Assembly (NCBI GenBank): GCA_017999435.1
Contig: JAGNLV010000001.1
Span: 358,108-391,937 of the forward strand
DNA from: Candidatus Zixiibacteriota bacterium
Lineage (GTDB): Bacteria > Zixibacteria > MSB-5A5 > GN15 > FEB-12
Direction: 5' to 3'
DNA: 33,830 nt
A model generated the notes under the pieces. The model saw nothing but the letters and a program-made list of their open reading frames with translations, did no database searches and was not told the origin of the DNA. This document shows positions 1 through 6,001 of the stretch, in pieces. A program made the translations under genes and the position numbers. The first letter of the stretch is position 1; every line of letters starts with the position of its first letter.

Positions 1-167
1 GCTGGGACTTGACAGGAACCGCCGCTTAAGTACATTCTATCTCGATGCTATCCTGCTTGTTGGTAGCTGGGACTTGACAGGAACCGCCGCTTAAGTACAT
101 TTCGGAAGGAAATTTCCCCGGTGTCACCGTGGCTGGGACTTGACAGGAACCGCCGCTTAAGTACATT
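1..167 (+). CRISPR. CRISPR array, type II-C, right-hand end (3 repeats, 2 spacers)
   Basis: Three identical 36-bp repeats lie at 1-36, 66-101 and 132-167, separated by spacers of 29 bp (37-65) and 30 bp (102-131). The window opens on the first base of a repeat, so the array probably continues to the left. The plus strand is taken as the crRNA sense, because the anti-repeat of the tracrRNA at 4673-4709 is complementary to it. Each repeat holds TTGACA at its bases 9-14 and TACATT at bases 31-36, 16 bp apart, which is a sigma70-type promoter firing into the following spacer. Promoters inside repeats are known for the type II-C system of Neisseria meningitidis. I saw no match to either spacer in the window. 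The array converges on the cas genes. Confidence 0.95.
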
Positions 168-200
168 ATGCCCCCTGTTAATCGTTTGATTAACAGGGGG
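168..200. other. Perfect hairpin closing the array
   Basis: Directly after the last repeat, 171-183 is the perfect reverse complement of 188-200, a 13-bp stem with a four-base loop. It lies between the last repeat promoter and the 3' end of cas2. It may stop convergent transcripts from both sides. It lacks a clear T-tract on either strand, so calling it an intrinsic terminator is an inference. Confidence 0.5.
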
Positions 201-219
201 TTCTCGTCAATAAAATCCA

Positions 220-585
220 TCAGAAAAGCATCAATTGAGCCGGCGGTTGTTCCGGTCGATGCCGTTTTGTCCCCGTAAACACCTCCATCTTGCCGTATTG
301 GCGATCCGTTATCGCCAGCACCCTCACCTCCCCTTCCGGGGGCAGCGCCTCTCGGATTCGCTTGCGGCAAATGTTGGCCCGTTCTTCGCTCCCGCAGTAC
401 CTCCCATACACGGACAGTTGCAGCATCAGGAACCCTTCCTTCAGTAAATGCATCCGGAACTGCGCGTACCGGCGCCGGGCCACGTTTGAATCGACCGGCA
501 GATCGAACATCGCCAGCACCCACATACCGCGATACTCCGACGGTACCCTGTCGCCCGCATGCTTCGCTACACCACGGGCAGGCAC
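220..585 (-). CDS. cas2: CRISPR-associated endonuclease Cas2
   Basis: Cas2 is the small ferredoxin-fold partner of Cas1 in the spacer-integration complex. The 121-residue protein has the family's first strand with its acidic residue in MWVLAMFDLPVDS (about residues 21-33), then the YAQFRMHLLKEGFLMLQLSVY helix-strand region and a later strand in VRVLAITDRQYGKM. The start is a GTG at 585 with GGAGAGG just upstream (589-595). It overlaps the 3' end of cas1 by 19 bases, so the two are probably translationally coupled. An internal ATG at residue 21 is an alternative start, since many type II Cas2 proteins begin close to the first strand. It is the last gene of the cas9-cas1-cas2 operon. No csn2 or cas4 follows, which fits subtype II-C. 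Confidence 0.93.
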   Translation of the reverse strand: MPARGVAKHAGDRVPSEYRGMWVLAMFDLPVDSNVARRRYAQFRMHLLKEGFLMLQLSVYGRYCGSEERANICRKRIREALPPEGEVRVLAITDRQYGKMEVFTGTKRHRPEQPPAQLMLF

Positions 586-1454
586 AGTCCTCTCCGTCTT
601 CCCAGATACACCTGTGCCAGGCTCGCGGCCGCATGGGCGAGAATATCCGGCAGCACTGCCGTTTCATTTTCCACGGCGTGCCGTGTCCCGATGATCCCCC
701 CGATGAGCTGGCGCTTCGCCGCAGCGTCGAGGGTCCCTTCCGGGCCCCGCGTGTCGCACATGCCCAGTACGACCCGGTCCACCGCCGGGCGATACGGTTC
801 CATCAGGTCGTCGGCCAAGCAGTAGGCGTCATAGCGATTGTGGTGGTGAAGTCCCAGCGACGGGTGCAGGCCCGCTCCGCAGATTGCGCGCGCGGCCATG
901 GCCCGCAGTACCGCGTACCCGTAGTTCAGCAACCGGTTCTGGTCCGCCCGGTTCCTGTCCCGGTGAAACGACGTCCCAAACAAAGCCGGCCAGTACCGCC
1001 GCGCTGCCTGCCCTTCGATGTTTGATGTGTCCCCGGAGCGCACGTCTCGCGCAAGTCGAAACAGCCCGAAATCCTCTCCCCGCACCCGCCGTAGACAAGC
1101 CCCTTGAGCCTGTACCTTCGACCTGACGATCTGCTGCCATAATCGCTTCTTCAGCGTTGGCGGTGCTTCGGCCTGTGCCGTAAGCCGCTCCCCCTGCGTG
1201 GTATGCCCCAGCAGCGAGACGAGCATTCCTATCGGCAGGTGCTTCTCGTCGCACACCACGAGCGCACCTCCCGCCTCACAGATCCCCGCCAGCACCCCCT
1301 GCGTATAGGATACCGCGGGATTGGAGACAACCAGCGCCGATACATCATTGAGCGGGGTCGTCTGCTCCGAACCGTCTACGCCAATGACGAGTTGTCGATG
1401 TCGAATGCTGAGGCGGGCCGGTTGCTCCGAAATATCAAGAAATCTCTCGCCCAT
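567..1454 (-). CDS. cas1: CRISPR-associated integrase Cas1
   Basis: Cas1 is the metal-dependent integrase that inserts new spacers at the leader-repeat junction together with Cas2. The protein has 295 residues, a normal length for type II Cas1. Visible motifs are the catalytic glutamate in SNIEGQAARRYW (E147), the histidine-rich segment GLHPSLGLHHHNRYDAY (about 195-211, catalytic His among 203-205) and the acidic LADDLMEPYRP motif (about 213-223). These are the E-H-D triad regions of active Cas1. It starts at an ATG 55 bases after the cas9 stop and overlaps cas2 by 19 bases. All expected residues appear intact, so the adaptation module looks functional. Confidence 0.95.
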   Translation of the reverse strand: MGERFLDISEQPARLSIRHRQLVIGVDGSEQTTPLNDVSALVVSNPAVSYTQGVLAGICEAGGALVVCDEKHLPIGMLVSLLGHTTQGERLTAQAEAPPTLKKRLWQQIVRSKVQAQGACLRRVRGEDFGLFRLARDVRSGDTSNIEGQAARRYWPALFGTSFHRDRNRADQNRLLNYGYAVLRAMAARAICGAGLHPSLGLHHHNRYDAYCLADDLMEPYRPAVDRVVLGMCDTRGPEGTLDAAAKRQLIGGIIGTRHAVENETAVLPDILAHAAASLAQVYLGRRRGLCLPVV

Positions 1455-1509: not shown

Positions 1510-4500
1510 TCAGTCGGCCGCTCGCCGCACCTCCCCCAGAGGCGTCACCACGACTTTGCGGCAGTTGCGCCTCCTCAAGCTGTCCGGGACAGCTGTCATT
1601 CCGGACTTTGGAATCTCCTTCAGCCTCCGAGCATCGTGGATCGGTACGAACCGAATCTGCTTGGATTGAGGGACAGTGCGGACCACGTAGAGCGCTCTGC
1701 CCGTTCCCTCGCGATCCAGTTCGATCACGTCCCCGCAGGACAACGAGAAGAGAAACCGACCCCCGTTGCAGTCATCCCGCCTCACGACCGGCTCCCCACG
1801 CCGCAACCGCTGCGTCGCCTCGAAAAGACTCACCACCTTTCCCTCCCATCGCACAGCCCCGCCCCCTTCCGCACACACTTCAAACAGAGTGATGTGGTGA
1901 TTCGCATCCGAGGTCACATGCCGCCGGCGATGGGCGGACCCGACGGGGAATGTCACCAGGTTTTTGGCCAGGCGCACTCGCCGGATGGGAATCCGTATTC
2001 CTCCTCCCCCTGAGAGATACGGCTTCTCCACGTCCGCCGCGAACGCCTTCTTGACGTCTCCGCCGGCTTCCTCCACCCGCCGCCGAACCGCGGCTCTGAC
2101 GACCGGGTCCACTATGTCATCAATATCGCCTTTGTGCAGCGCGGCCAGCGGCTTGCGGATGTGCACCACGGCCCGCCCATCCACAGTGCGGGCTCCGTAG
2201 AACGTATCCTGGTGCAACGCCCCGCGCACGCGCCTCGACAGCCGACGGGAGGGTATGACCCGGTCGATGACCGCCTTGATGTCGCCGATGAATCCCGGCC
2301 ACGGTTCCTCGACATCCTTGAACAGCTTGTCGTACGCTTCAGCCCGCCGCGCCGCCGCCGTGAGGCGCATGACCGTACGGGTATCGGACAGCGCGACCGC
2401 CACCGCGTCCACGGCGTGGTGCCGGTGGTCATCGCGCGACTTCAAATCGTCGCGCGACAGCAGGCCGTTCAGCCCATGCGCGTGCCGCACCAGCGCGGTG
2501 ATCATTCCTGCCGACGCCTGAATGCGCCGCTTTCCTTCGGCGTCCACCCCCTGCGTTCTCCCGCCGCCGTAGAGCATACTCAAATATCTCATGGCCAGCT
2601 TGGACGCGTAACGTGTGTCGTTGAGTTGCCGGCTGCAGAATTCATTGATGAATGCGTTGTGTTCCGCCTCTCTCATTTCAAACCGGCGCACTTTCGCCCA
2701 GCGCCCCGGCCCCTTGAATTCCCGCACCCGCCCCATGATCTCCTCCCACCTCTCTGTCCGGCCGTACGCCTCCCACGGCGTTCGGCTATGCTTCACCTTG
2801 CGATTTTCGTCCGCATGGCATAGCGTCTTGTTCATGAAGGAATCATCAAGGCACCGGCTGAAAGGAATGATGTGTTCGATATCGAACTGTGGTGACCGCC
2901 CGAGCAGATCGTGTATGCCAAAGGGCTCTGCCGTGTACGGACACCTCCAGCTGCATTCTTCGGCGAGGAGGATCTTCAGGATGTCGTCCCGGCTCGGGTT
3001 CTGTATCCCCGTTTCCTTCCTGATCCGCTCGGCCGCCCGCATTCTGGCCTGCTCGTTTTGGCGCATCTTCTTGGACAATTCCAGCCGCACCTTGGCGGTC
3101 TGTCGCAGGTCGCGGGCCAACTCGACTCTGACAAAATCGGGCTTGCCGTATCGCTGCACGACGGCATTGACGACCCGCCTCAGTTCTGTCAGCGACCGGA
3201 TCACGAGCGGATTGCGAATATCGCCAAGCGCGGACAGCACGCTCGGAAGTTCATCTACCGCCTCCGTCAGACGATTCATCCGCTCGCGGTACTCCGGCAC
3301 CGCCTCGATTGCGTCGTATAGCTTCGCCCCTTGTCGGAGATGCGGAAGGAGTTTGTCCAGCGCTTGTCTGGAGAAGGCGCAATGGCCGGGCTCGAGTCGA
3401 ATCTCGGTCAGCCGTTTCGCTTGCTCCGGCGCAAGTCCCCACTTCCTCTGCCCTCGCCGCGCCAGCGCCCCGTCGTTCACGATCGACCGCACGTCCTCGA
3501 CCACCGCCTCTCTGTCTGCCTCCGTCAAATCCCTCCATCGCTCCAGGCCGAACACACCCGCCAACTGGGCCGCCGTTCTGTTTCCCTTGATTCTCTTCTC
3601 GCCGCCGCGCTCCAGGTTGAACACCGTCCCGCGCAGCGAGGGAATGCCCCCTCTTCCACGAAAACTGCTGTATGTCGCTTCCGCCGTCGCCTCCAGCCTT
3701 TCGATGATCGCCTCCCGCTCCTCCGACGAAAGCGCCCTCACCTCCCCGGTTGATTTGTCTATCACCGCCAGATTATTCACAGTCTGAAGATACCGGAAGC
3801 GCTGCGCCGAGAGGTGCTCCCAAGAGGCCCGTCGGTACTTCGGCTCGAGTTCGCATTTCCCTACAAAGCGTTTCTGGCTTTTCAGCGGCCGCTGGTAGAA
3901 GATAATCTCGCGGATCTTCTCGCGCAGATCCGGGAGGAGCACGTCTGGAGCGAAACCGGCCTGAGTGTTCCACAGCGCGTCGAACTCCTGTTCATACATG
4001 TGGCGCCCGGTGTACCGGTCCCGAATGCGTGTGCCGCCTCCCTCGATTGAGGCGAAATACTCGCCGATAGTCCGCGCTCCCACCGAAGCCATCTCGCGCT
4101 CGAGGTCCAGGATTCCCTGTCTGACTTTGCCCGCCTCATCCTCGTCCTTGGGCGCCGAACGCCGGTTGCTGAGAAAGCCGCGTCGTTGCGCCAGGTGATA
4201 AAGCGCCCGTCCGAATTCGTAGGGCTCCAACCGCTCGGAAATCCCCCGACGCCGCAGCTGATACGGCGATTCCATGGAACAATCCAACCGCTTAAAGAAC
4301 TCGTGTCGCGCCGCGCTGTCCCGAATGTCCGCCAGCGGTAACAGACCAACTGTCTGTAGGAAGTTCGCCAGCCGACTCGTGCGTCGTGCCTGCCGCTCGA
4401 GCCGCCGGCGTATCGACCGCGCCTCCCTGCGCTGCATGTTTCGCGACTTTCCACGGGCGTCTGTTTCCAGCTCGTCCAACCCAGCCTCGAAGACTCGCAC

Positions 4501-4611
4501 GCCCGCCGCGACTACTCCCGTCGGCATGCCGCCCTCGTGACTCAGAACCGCCCACCCAACAGAATTCGTGCCGATATCCAAACCGAGTATGGTGCGACTT
4601 TCTTTGCTCAC
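1510..4611 (-). CDS. cas9: Type II-C Cas9 RNA-guided endonuclease
   Basis: Cas9 is the crRNA:tracrRNA-guided double-strand DNA nuclease of the locus. It has 1033 residues, in the compact II-C size range. Nuclease motifs look intact (numbering from the GTG start): RuvC-I ILGLDIGTNSVGW with D12, an arginine-rich bridge helix at about 55-80, RuvC-II FVRVELARDL with E497, HNH FDIEHIIPFSR with H580 and DENRKV with N603, and RuvC-III HRHHAVDAVAVAL with H732 and D735. A recognition lobe lies between the bridge helix and RuvC-II, and the PAM-interacting region occupies roughly 760-1033. The start is placed at GTG 4611 because GGGAGG (4619-4624) lies 7 bases upstream of it. A TTG at 4617 is in frame but only one base from that site. 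A promoter embedded in the anti-repeat (4674-4702) points at this gene. Confidence 0.97.
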   Translation of the reverse strand: MSKESRTILGLDIGTNSVGWAVLSHEGGMPTGVVAAGVRVFEAGLDELETDARGKSRNMQRREARSIRRRLERQARRTSRLANFLQTVGLLPLADIRDSAARHEFFKRLDCSMESPYQLRRRGISERLEPYEFGRALYHLAQRRGFLSNRRSAPKDEDEAGKVRQGILDLEREMASVGARTIGEYFASIEGGGTRIRDRYTGRHMYEQEFDALWNTQAGFAPDVLLPDLREKIREIIFYQRPLKSQKRFVGKCELEPKYRRASWEHLSAQRFRYLQTVNNLAVIDKSTGEVRALSSEEREAIIERLEATAEATYSSFRGRGGIPSLRGTVFNLERGGEKRIKGNRTAAQLAGVFGLERWRDLTEADREAVVEDVRSIVNDGALARRGQRKWGLAPEQAKRLTEIRLEPGHCAFSRQALDKLLPHLRQGAKLYDAIEAVPEYRERMNRLTEAVDELPSVLSALGDIRNPLVIRSLTELRRVVNAVVQRYGKPDFVRVELARDLRQTAKVRLELSKKMRQNEQARMRAAERIRKETGIQNPSRDDILKILLAEECSWRCPYTAEPFGIHDLLGRSPQFDIEHIIPFSRCLDDSFMNKTLCHADENRKVKHSRTPWEAYGRTERWEEIMGRVREFKGPGRWAKVRRFEMREAEHNAFINEFCSRQLNDTRYASKLAMRYLSMLYGGGRTQGVDAEGKRRIQASAGMITALVRHAHGLNGLLSRDDLKSRDDHRHHAVDAVAVALSDTRTVMRLTAAARRAEAYDKLFKDVEEPWPGFIGDIKAVIDRVIPSRRLSRRVRGALHQDTFYGARTVDGRAVVHIRKPLAALHKGDIDDIVDPVVRAAVRRRVEEAGGDVKKAFAADVEKPYLSGGGGIRIPIRRVRLAKNLVTFPVGSAHRRRHVTSDANHHITLFEVCAEGGGAVRWEGKVVSLFEATQRLRRGEPVVRRDDCNGGRFLFSLSCGDVIELDREGTGRALYVVRTVPQSKQIRFVPIHDARRLKEIPKSGMTAVPDSLRRRNCRKVVVTPLGEVRRAAD

Positions 4612-4637: not shown

Positions 4638-4666
4638 TTGACAAAGCCGCTTTCCAGCCCCAAAAT
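4638..4666 (+). promoter_or_regulatory. Predicted tracrRNA promoter
   Basis: TTGACA at 4638-4643 is followed after exactly 17 bp by CAAAAT at 4661-4666. The predicted start is near 4673, at the first base of the anti-repeat. This gives the tracrRNA a defined 5' end. It sits between the cas9 start and the anti-repeat and lies back to back with the predicted cas9 promoter. Confidence 0.65.
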
Positions 4667-4673
4667 ACGAATG

Positions 4674-4702
4674 AATGTACTTAAGCGGCGGTTGTCTGTC
4701 AA
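4674..4702 (-). promoter_or_regulatory. Predicted cas9-cas1-cas2 promoter inside the anti-repeat
   Basis: Read on the minus strand, the anti-repeat contains TTGACA (4697-4702), a 17-bp spacer, and TACATT (4674-4679). Both hexamers are the ones found in each CRISPR repeat, where the spacing is 16 bp. The predicted start is near 4667, giving a leader of about 55 bases to the cas9 GTG with its GGGAGG site. The same bases on the plus strand are the tracrRNA anti-repeat. Confidence 0.65.
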
Positions 4703-4750
4703 CTTCCAGTAAGAGACAACTGTCTCGAAGGATATGCCCTACGGGGTATC

Positions 4751-4780
4751 GACGCCGGTCCAGACCGGCGTCACTTTTTT
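4751..4780 (+). terminator. Intrinsic terminator of the tracrRNA
   Basis: A GC-rich stem (4751-4759 with 4764-4772, four-base loop) is followed by AC and six T (4775-4780). On the minus strand there is no T-tract after the stem, so it should stop the tracrRNA but not necessarily read-through from coaBC towards cas9. Confidence 0.85.
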
Positions 4781-4784
4781 CCCC

Positions 4785-5441
4785 CTACCGCTTCCCCAGC
4801 ATCGCCGCCACCCGCGCCACCAGCCGCCGCGCCACCTCCCCTTTCGCCAAGAGCGGCCACTCCTCCGCCTCCCCGTCCCGCCCGATCACCTGCACCCGAT
4901 TGGTGTCGGTCAGGAAGCCCGAGTCCGCCGACGGCTCGTTCAGGACAATCAGATCGAGTTTCTTCTCCCGAAGTTTCCGCCGCGCGTTGGCCACCCCGTC
5001 GGTCGTCTCCAGCGCAAACCCGACCACAATCTGCCCGGCCCGCTTGCCCGCCGCGACATCCTTGAGGATATCCCCCGTCGCTTCAAGCTCAAGCCGCAAG
5101 TTCTTGATACGCTTGATCTTCTCGGATGAGATCCGGGACGGCCGATAGTCGGCGGGAGCCGCCGCCATCACCAGGCAGTCGCACTGCGCGAACCGCTCCC
5201 CGACCGCCCGATGCAGCTCGGCGGTCGACTCCACGCGCACGAGGACCACGCCCTCGGGGGCGGCCAGTTCCACCGGCCCGGAGATGAGCGTGACAGAGGC
5301 GCCCTGCTCGGCTGCGGCCGCGGCGATCGCATACCCCATTTTCCCGGAAGAATAATTTGTGATATAGCGCACCGGGTCGATGACCTCGCGGGTCGGCCCG
5401 GCCGTGACCAGGAACCTACGCCCGGTCAGGCTTTTTTTTTT
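4785..5441 (-). CDS. coaBC: CoaB domain of CoaBC (phosphopantothenate-cysteine ligase), in the -1 frame
   Basis: This is the C-terminal half of CoaBC, which joins cysteine to 4'-phosphopantothenate using CTP in coenzyme A synthesis. Family motifs are VTAGPTREVIDPVRYITNYS followed by SGKMG (nucleotide binding), APADYRP, VGFALET and the ARRKL lysine motif. The frame begins only at the run of ten A on this strand (5432-5441). No ATG, GTG or TTG lies in frame between that run and the first conserved motif, so it is unlikely to be translated alone. Joined to the CoaC part it gives about 407 residues, the usual CoaBC length. The start given is the slip site, not an initiation codon. A homopolymer sequencing error would explain the split equally well. 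Confidence 0.8.
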   Translation of the reverse strand, partial: KKKSLTGRRFLVTAGPTREVIDPVRYITNYSSGKMGYAIAAAAAEQGASVTLISGPVELAAPEGVVLVRVESTAELHRAVGERFAQCDCLVMAAAPADYRPSRISSEKIKRIKNLRLELEATGDILKDVAAGKRAGQIVVGFALETTDGVANARRKLREKKLDLIVLNEPSADSGFLTDTNRVQVIGRDGEAEEWPLLAKGEVARRLVARVAAMLGKR

Positions 5442-6001
5442 GCCCGGCCCTTGGGCGCCGCGAAGAACCCCTCGATCGCCCGGAGAATCACCTCCGGCTC
5501 GGCCATCCGCCCCACGCCGTAGTCCTCGCACGCCATCTCCCCCTCGGCCGGCTCCACCACCCGGTAGCCGAGACTGAGAAGGGTCTTGAGATTGCGCTGC
5601 GTCACCGGGTTCCGCCACATCTGCGGATTCATGGCCGGCGCGATCATAATCGGTTTGCCCGAGGCGCACACCACCGTGGTGAGCAGATCATCCGAAATTC
5701 CCGAGGCTGCCTTGCCGATAAAGTTGGCCGTTGTCGGCGCCACCACGATCAGGTCGGGCCAGTGCGCGAGATCGATGTGCCGTGTCGCCACATACTCCCC
5801 GTGGGCGAACATTTCGACCGCCACCGGCCGCGCCGACACCGTCTCCATCGTCAGCGGCGTGATGAATTCGGTGGCGGCCCGGGTCATCACCACCTGCACC
5901 TCGGCCCCGGCTTTGACCAGCGCACGCACGAGATAGGGGACTTTGTAGCAGGCGATGCCGCCGGTGAGACCGACGAGAATCTTCTTGTTCGTCAGTGACA
6001 T
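5426..6001 (-). CDS. coaBC: CoaC domain of CoaBC (phosphopantothenoylcysteine decarboxylase)
   Basis: CoaC is the FMN-dependent decarboxylase that makes 4'-phosphopantetheine. The 191-residue frame has the flavoprotein start KKILVGLTGGIACYK, the active-site His of RHIDLAHW (H75), the PAMN motif (N125) and the MACEDYGVGRM flap with C158. These fall at the same numbers as in E. coli CoaBC. The frame runs into AKKKA and a stop exactly at a run of ten A, where the CoaB domain continues in the -1 frame. The ATG lies 3 bases after the smg stop, so it is probably co-transcribed with smg. All active-site residues are present, so this looks like one working gene read by slippage, or a base-call error, and not a decayed one. 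Confidence 0.9.
   Translation of the reverse strand: MSLTNKKILVGLTGGIACYKVPYLVRALVKAGAEVQVVMTRAATEFITPLTMETVSARPVAVEMFAHGEYVATRHIDLAHWPDLIVVAPTTANFIGKAASGISDDLLTTVVCASGKPIMIAPAMNPQMWRNPVTQRNLKTLLSLGYRVVEPAEGEMACEDYGVGRMAEPEVILRAIEGFFAAPKGRAKKKA

Follow-up and report, generated by a model that had tools for sequence, protein, structure and literature searches.

Organization of the locus

The window analysed here, i.e. the whole stretch of 33,830 nt taken from contig JAGNLV010000001.1 (positions 358,108 to 391,937, forward strand), contains a type II-C CRISPR-Cas locus composed of a tracrRNA gene, cas9, cas1, cas2 and a convergent CRISPR array. Its features are as follows.

1..167, plus strand: right end of the CRISPR array, whose remainder lies left of the window; three repeats of 36 nt, all carrying TTGACA, 16 bp and TACATT
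220..585, minus strand: cas2 (TIGR01573, 67 bits)
567..1454, minus strand: cas1, type II (NMENI; TIGR03639, 251 bits)
1510..4611, minus strand: cas9 (TIGR01865, 654 bits, cut-off 100); GTG start at 4611, Shine-Dalgarno GGGAGG at 4624-4619
4638..4666, plus strand: putative tracrRNA promoter, TTGACA (4638-4643), 17 bp, CAAAAT (4661-4666); predicted start at about 4673
4673..4780, plus strand: tracrRNA gene (fold z-score -4.2), with a terminator stem at 4751-4772 and a T-run at 4775-4780 found by terminator scan
4674..4710, plus strand: tracrRNA anti-repeat, pairing with all 36 nt of the repeat in the alignment, with an additional base facing repeat positions 13-16
4674..4702, minus strand: putative cas9-directed sigma-70-like promoter, TTGACA (4702-4697), 17 bp, TACATT (4679-4674); predicted start at about 4667
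4785..6001, minus strand: coaBC (open reading frames 5669-4785 and 6001-5426, named by reading the translation), upstream of cas9 and co-directional with it

The locus displays the Cas9 effector, a tracrRNA whose anti-repeat matches the array repeats, and an array lying on the strand opposite to the cas genes with repeats whose 3' end, TACATT, forms a -10 element. Genes cas1 (NMENI) and cas2 lie beside cas9, and the neighbours seen from the coaBC side to the array are coaBC and the array. The tracrRNA gene sits on the plus strand between coaBC and cas9. The GTG at 4611 is most likely the cas9 start, which would leave a 5' untranslated region of about 56 nt. Comparison with Rfam gave no match at gathering thresholds and a single sub-threshold match to CC1840.

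The genome holds 11 such repeats, a count that is uncertain owing to an assembly gap in the array. This gap is a run of N located just left of window base 1 (L026:6009-6108), inside the array and flanked by identical spacers, and some array units may be scaffolding duplicates. The degenerate repeats (TTGAGTACATT, GGAGCC, GAAACC; L026:5485-5720) are those farthest from cas2, as if new units joined at the cas2 end and transcription ran toward that end. Directly after the last repeat, between the array and cas2, a perfect inverted repeat was observed (CCCCCTGTTAATCG TTTGATTAACAGGGGG, window 171-202), which may serve to terminate array transcripts or belong to the adaptation end.

A putative cas9-directed promoter in the anti-repeat

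On its minus strand the anti-repeat reads ACTGGAAGTTGACAGACAACCGCCGCTTAAGTACATT, and the aligned repeat reads GCTGGGACTTGACAGGAACCGCCGCTTAAGTACATT. The preliminary description had reported TTGACA, 17 bp and TACATT facing cas9 on this strand, identical hexamers in the three window repeats (bases 9-14 and 31-36) with a 16-bp instead of a 17-bp spacer, and a separate tracrRNA promoter on the plus strand. The coordinates of the first and the identity and spacing of the second were confirmed, and the third was found at 4638-4666. The interval 4638-4709 given there takes in the tracrRNA promoter as well, the anti-repeat proper covering 4674-4710. Both putative start sites, at about 4673 on the plus and about 4667 on the minus strand, were placed from the -10 positions. 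That the tracrRNA promoter is itself a degenerate repeat was also considered and dropped, since relatives share only the -35 there.

Seven promoter-like sites occurred in 6 kb, against 1.3 expected. The top-scoring site in the 260 bp before cas9 was the anti-repeat, and none of 200 dinucleotide shuffles reached its score. Genome-wide (3.5 Mb), the pattern TTGACA-N16-18-TANNNT was encountered 187 times and the reversed pattern 5 times, an enrichment indicating that promoters of the ordinary sigma-70 type operate in this organism. The anti-repeat site has both a -35 and a -10 separated by a spacer within the 16-18 bp range, and agrees with the genome's own consensus.

Sampling of relatives

Long Cas9 matches were present in 14 of the 132 genomes of the phylum, that of the window included, with about 50% identity to the Cas9 of the window. 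A search of genome contigs with a single-protein query recovered no relative; an alignment query then yielded 341 loci, of which 80 were kept (named genomes from many phyla, partly the same records as the phylum set). The sample was completed by about 50 genomes from two more phyla and six plasmid loci. Repeats, anti-repeats and the region upstream of cas9 were extracted for each locus, and 51 loci provided a usable pair for comparison; in these, the anti-repeat spanned the whole repeat. The locus statistics below take related loci as independent of one another. A divergent tracrRNA gene lay just before cas9 in nearly every locus for which both could be located; the arrangement described for the window thus recurs across many phyla.

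Conservation within a Cas9 clade

In 12 of the 13 phylum loci, the anti-repeat ranked first among the sigma-70-like sites of the 260 bp preceding cas9, and in all 12 intact ones its spacer measured 17 bp, whereas the repeats mostly had 16. The thirteenth locus, L036, has lost TTGACA, reads TACATA and displays TTGAGT-17-TAGAAT 18 bp downstream; this substitute gave a p value of 0.025 with mononucleotide shuffles and its score was reached in 11 of 200 dinucleotide shuffles.

In the Cas9 phylogeny, a clade of 19 members (100% SH-aLRT) brought together Zixibacteria, Nitrospirota, one contig of WOR-3 and another filed as Ignavibacterium. A strong anti-repeat promoter was present in 18 of the 19; among relatives within the clade, it is thus kept on the strand facing cas9. 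Among the 14 clade members with a known repeat, anti-repeat and repeat differed at 9 of 84 -35 positions (9-14) and at 45 of 154 flanking positions (4-8 and 15-20), a contrast with p = 0.001 when loci are treated as independent. Outside the clade (37 loci), no difference was seen between the -35 (60/222) and the flanks (99/407). Likewise, a TTG present in the repeat was kept in the anti-repeat in 13 of 14 cases inside the clade and 15 of 30 outside (p = 0.007, loci again taken as independent). Inside the clade, the -35 thus appears, from these comparisons, to be held beyond the needs of pairing. At the sequence level, our results establish the hexamers, the agreement with the genome consensus, the geometry and the conservation of this element across 19 deeply diverged Cas9s.

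The -35 of the tracrRNA promoter (TGTCAA on the cas9 strand) recurred 29-32 bp past the cas9 -10 in almost every phylum locus. In relatives, e.g. L041 and L044, it abuts the cas9 Shine-Dalgarno (TGTCAAGGAG, TGTCAAGGGG), promoter and ribosome site sharing bases. L041 is the contig filed as Ignavibacterium; its Cas9 is nested among those of Zixibacteria and the contig is identical to G042:C86, which belongs to the window's own order, so that it probably represents a mislabelled genome bin.

Pairing and decay across type II-C loci

Repeat and anti-repeat shared one -10 variant in 39 of the 51 loci, over a range including TACATT, TACAAT, TACACT, TATACT, TATAAT, TATATT, TAGAAT, TACAGT and TACAAC. 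This region is therefore maintained by pairing or by templating from the repeat. On the cas9-facing strand, T31 and A32 were found in 51/51 loci, A34 in 48/51 and T36 in 41/51. Because the repeat end is a nearly invariant TAnAnT, as expected of a crRNA promoter, the same -10 is inevitable on the other strand of a full-length anti-repeat. The presence of the promoter is in part automatic in this respect: wherever pairing reaches the final base of a repeat with a terminal -10, the anti-repeat bears this -10 as well. Hexamer identity taken alone is no proof of selection for cas9 expression, since it follows from RNA pairing combined with a repeat-internal promoter. The argument from identity is thereby weakened, without any implication that the promoter is inactive.

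Outside the clade, the -35 and the last base of the -10 often decay. The final T of the -10 was missing from 10 of 51 anti-repeats and from 1 of 51 repeats (p = 0.008 for loci treated as independent). Where this T was lost, no better alternative site was generally found (p = 0.30), L036 being the exception, and no significant association was seen between loss of the -35 and loss of the -10 in anti-repeats (p = 0.16). In several proteobacterial loci, the anti-repeat stops short of the -10. In L187, L189, L191, L203, L202 and L212, the match extends to about nt 21-28 of the repeat only and no clear -10 was seen there. In the Neisseria-type locus L199, GACAAT stands opposite TACAAT of the repeat and cas9 starts 110 nt downstream. 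A general type II-C rule is thus contradicted by the 15 of 30 outside-clade anti-repeats that lack the TTG present in their repeats, by the lost final T, by the truncations and by the GACAAT of the Neisseria-type locus. Conversely, full-length anti-repeats with an intact -10 were recorded in several outgroup branches (L181, L182, L194, L204, L210, L211 and L218), which is compatible with an ancestral state followed by later losses.

In C. jejuni, the tracrRNA is located downstream of the array, not before cas9, and pairs with nt 2-25 of the repeat only (PMC4607530). Since some anti-repeats in our sample are short as well, the distal third is dispensable for guide function in some lineages. This fits a second role of that third in the clade, a role that is not universal.

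Origin of cas9 transcription

Taken on these sequence comparisons, the anti-repeat is likely a working cas9 promoter in this locus and clade. A cas9-facing promoter probably arises there because the anti-repeat is a near-copy of promoter-bearing repeats. The initial proposal is retained insofar as the anti-repeat is by far the best cas9-directed site here and in nearly the whole clade, but not as a property of type II-C systems at large. We considered it unlikely that the hexamers are a mere by-product of pairing with these repeats, in which case their activity could be low or blocked by the tracrRNA promoter, with cas9 transcribed mainly from elsewhere. The joint change of -10 variants in repeat and anti-repeat is in line with such a by-product, as are the lineages that retain cas9 with truncated or mutated anti-repeats and the absence of general compensation for a decayed -10. 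Yet it accounts poorly for a -35 that is held, inside the clade, more than the neighbouring pairing positions, for an anti-repeat spacer of 17 bp where the repeats mostly have 16, and for the lack of a comparable alternative site before cas9 in most clade members. In the distant relatives L200, L204 and L205, moreover, the anti-repeat and the cas9 start are no more than 19-26 nt apart.

Read-through from the upstream operon, here coaBC, had been named from the outset as another source of cas9 transcripts, and the organization of the window lends itself to it: coaBC is co-directional, ends about 75 bp before the anti-repeat, and a search for an intrinsic terminator-like site on its strand found none. 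However, upstream neighbours vary among relatives, and read-through would yield RNA antisense to the tracrRNA. In at least four clade members, L041, L030, L043 and L034, the adjoining long open reading frame beyond the tracrRNA is transcribed away from cas9 and the anti-repeat promoter is kept; cas9 therefore needs a promoter in the tracrRNA region, where the best site in these four loci is the anti-repeat. Read-through, which cannot explain cas9 in these relatives, was accordingly judged very improbable.

Proposed mechanism

With the anti-repeat as cas9 promoter, its other strand would be a copy of the CRISPR repeat that keeps the repeat-internal sigma-70 promoter (TTGACA-17-TACATT). RNA polymerase would use this promoter to start the cas9-cas1-cas2 operon, at a predicted position of about 4667, and the promoter placed face to face with it (4638-4666) would start the tracrRNA at about 4673. 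Cas9 and tracrRNA promoters would presumably compete. A further and more speculative step, which we hold as a tentative idea, is that the anti-repeat and the cas9 promoter might constitute a single conserved element acting in both directions, descended from a CRISPR repeat captured in inverted orientation together with its promoter, and that the overlapping, mutually exclusive promoters might set the Cas9:tracrRNA ratio. If true, this would explain both the divergent tracrRNA before cas9 in most type II-C loci and the origin of type II-C tracrRNAs.

Should the anti-repeat promoter be used, one short sequence would serve as crRNA promoter and as promoter of the cas9 operon, while its other strand would supply the crRNA-pairing RNA. 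A change in the repeat would then need a counterpart that suits both pairing and Cas9 expression. Such use would also provide a tangible explanation of the divergent tracrRNA-cas9 layout and a path from repeat to tracrRNA that can be tested, and recoding the anti-repeat in such systems may alter cas9 expression.

Relation to known systems

Start-site mapping revealed promoters inside the repeats of C. jejuni, and such promoters have also been reported for N. meningitidis (PMC3656092) and predicted across type II-C (PMC4607530). In N. meningitidis and C. jejuni, the -10 of this promoter, gnTAnaaT, lies at the repeat 3' end (PMC3656092, PMC4607530). Like their arrays, the one described here has repeats with a -35 and a terminal TACATT and runs convergently with cas9, and the anti-repeat bears the same promoter. 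In contrast to those reports, where the promoter starts crRNAs, its anti-repeat copy is proposed here for cas9, and a clear -35 (TTGACA) accompanies the -10. The C. jejuni tracrRNA resembles the one of the window in having its own sigma-70 -10, but is not next to the cas9 start (PMC4607530). In the openly licensed literature, no prior description of an anti-repeat as cas9 promoter was found.

In Clostridium cellulolyticum, the type II-C tracrRNA is located upstream of the cas genes and an extended -10 occurs at the repeat end (PMC7038990). It shares with the window this tracrRNA position, an array transcribed against the cas genes and the repeat-end -10; in the accessible portion of that report, by contrast, nothing is said of a promoter on the strand opposite to the anti-repeat. 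As outlined in a review (PMC8616872), Cas9 guided by tracr-L represses the cas operon promoter in S. pyogenes (Workman 2021). The nearest known tie of tracrRNA to cas9 transcription is tracr-L. Both cases link the tracrRNA gene with transcription of cas9; the one outlined there acts by repression through guided Cas9, whereas here the anti-repeat DNA itself is proposed as the promoter.

Features of the repeat:anti-repeat duplex

The repeat:anti-repeat duplex displayed a conserved wobble pattern, with a repeat G facing an anti-repeat U at position 1 in 49 of 51 loci and at position 7 in 37 of 51. In L081, L084 and L108, the middle of the anti-repeat is unpaired with the repeat and its far end is AT-rich (TATATT in L084, AATATT in L081 and L108), which makes these loci candidates for a -10 kept without pairing.
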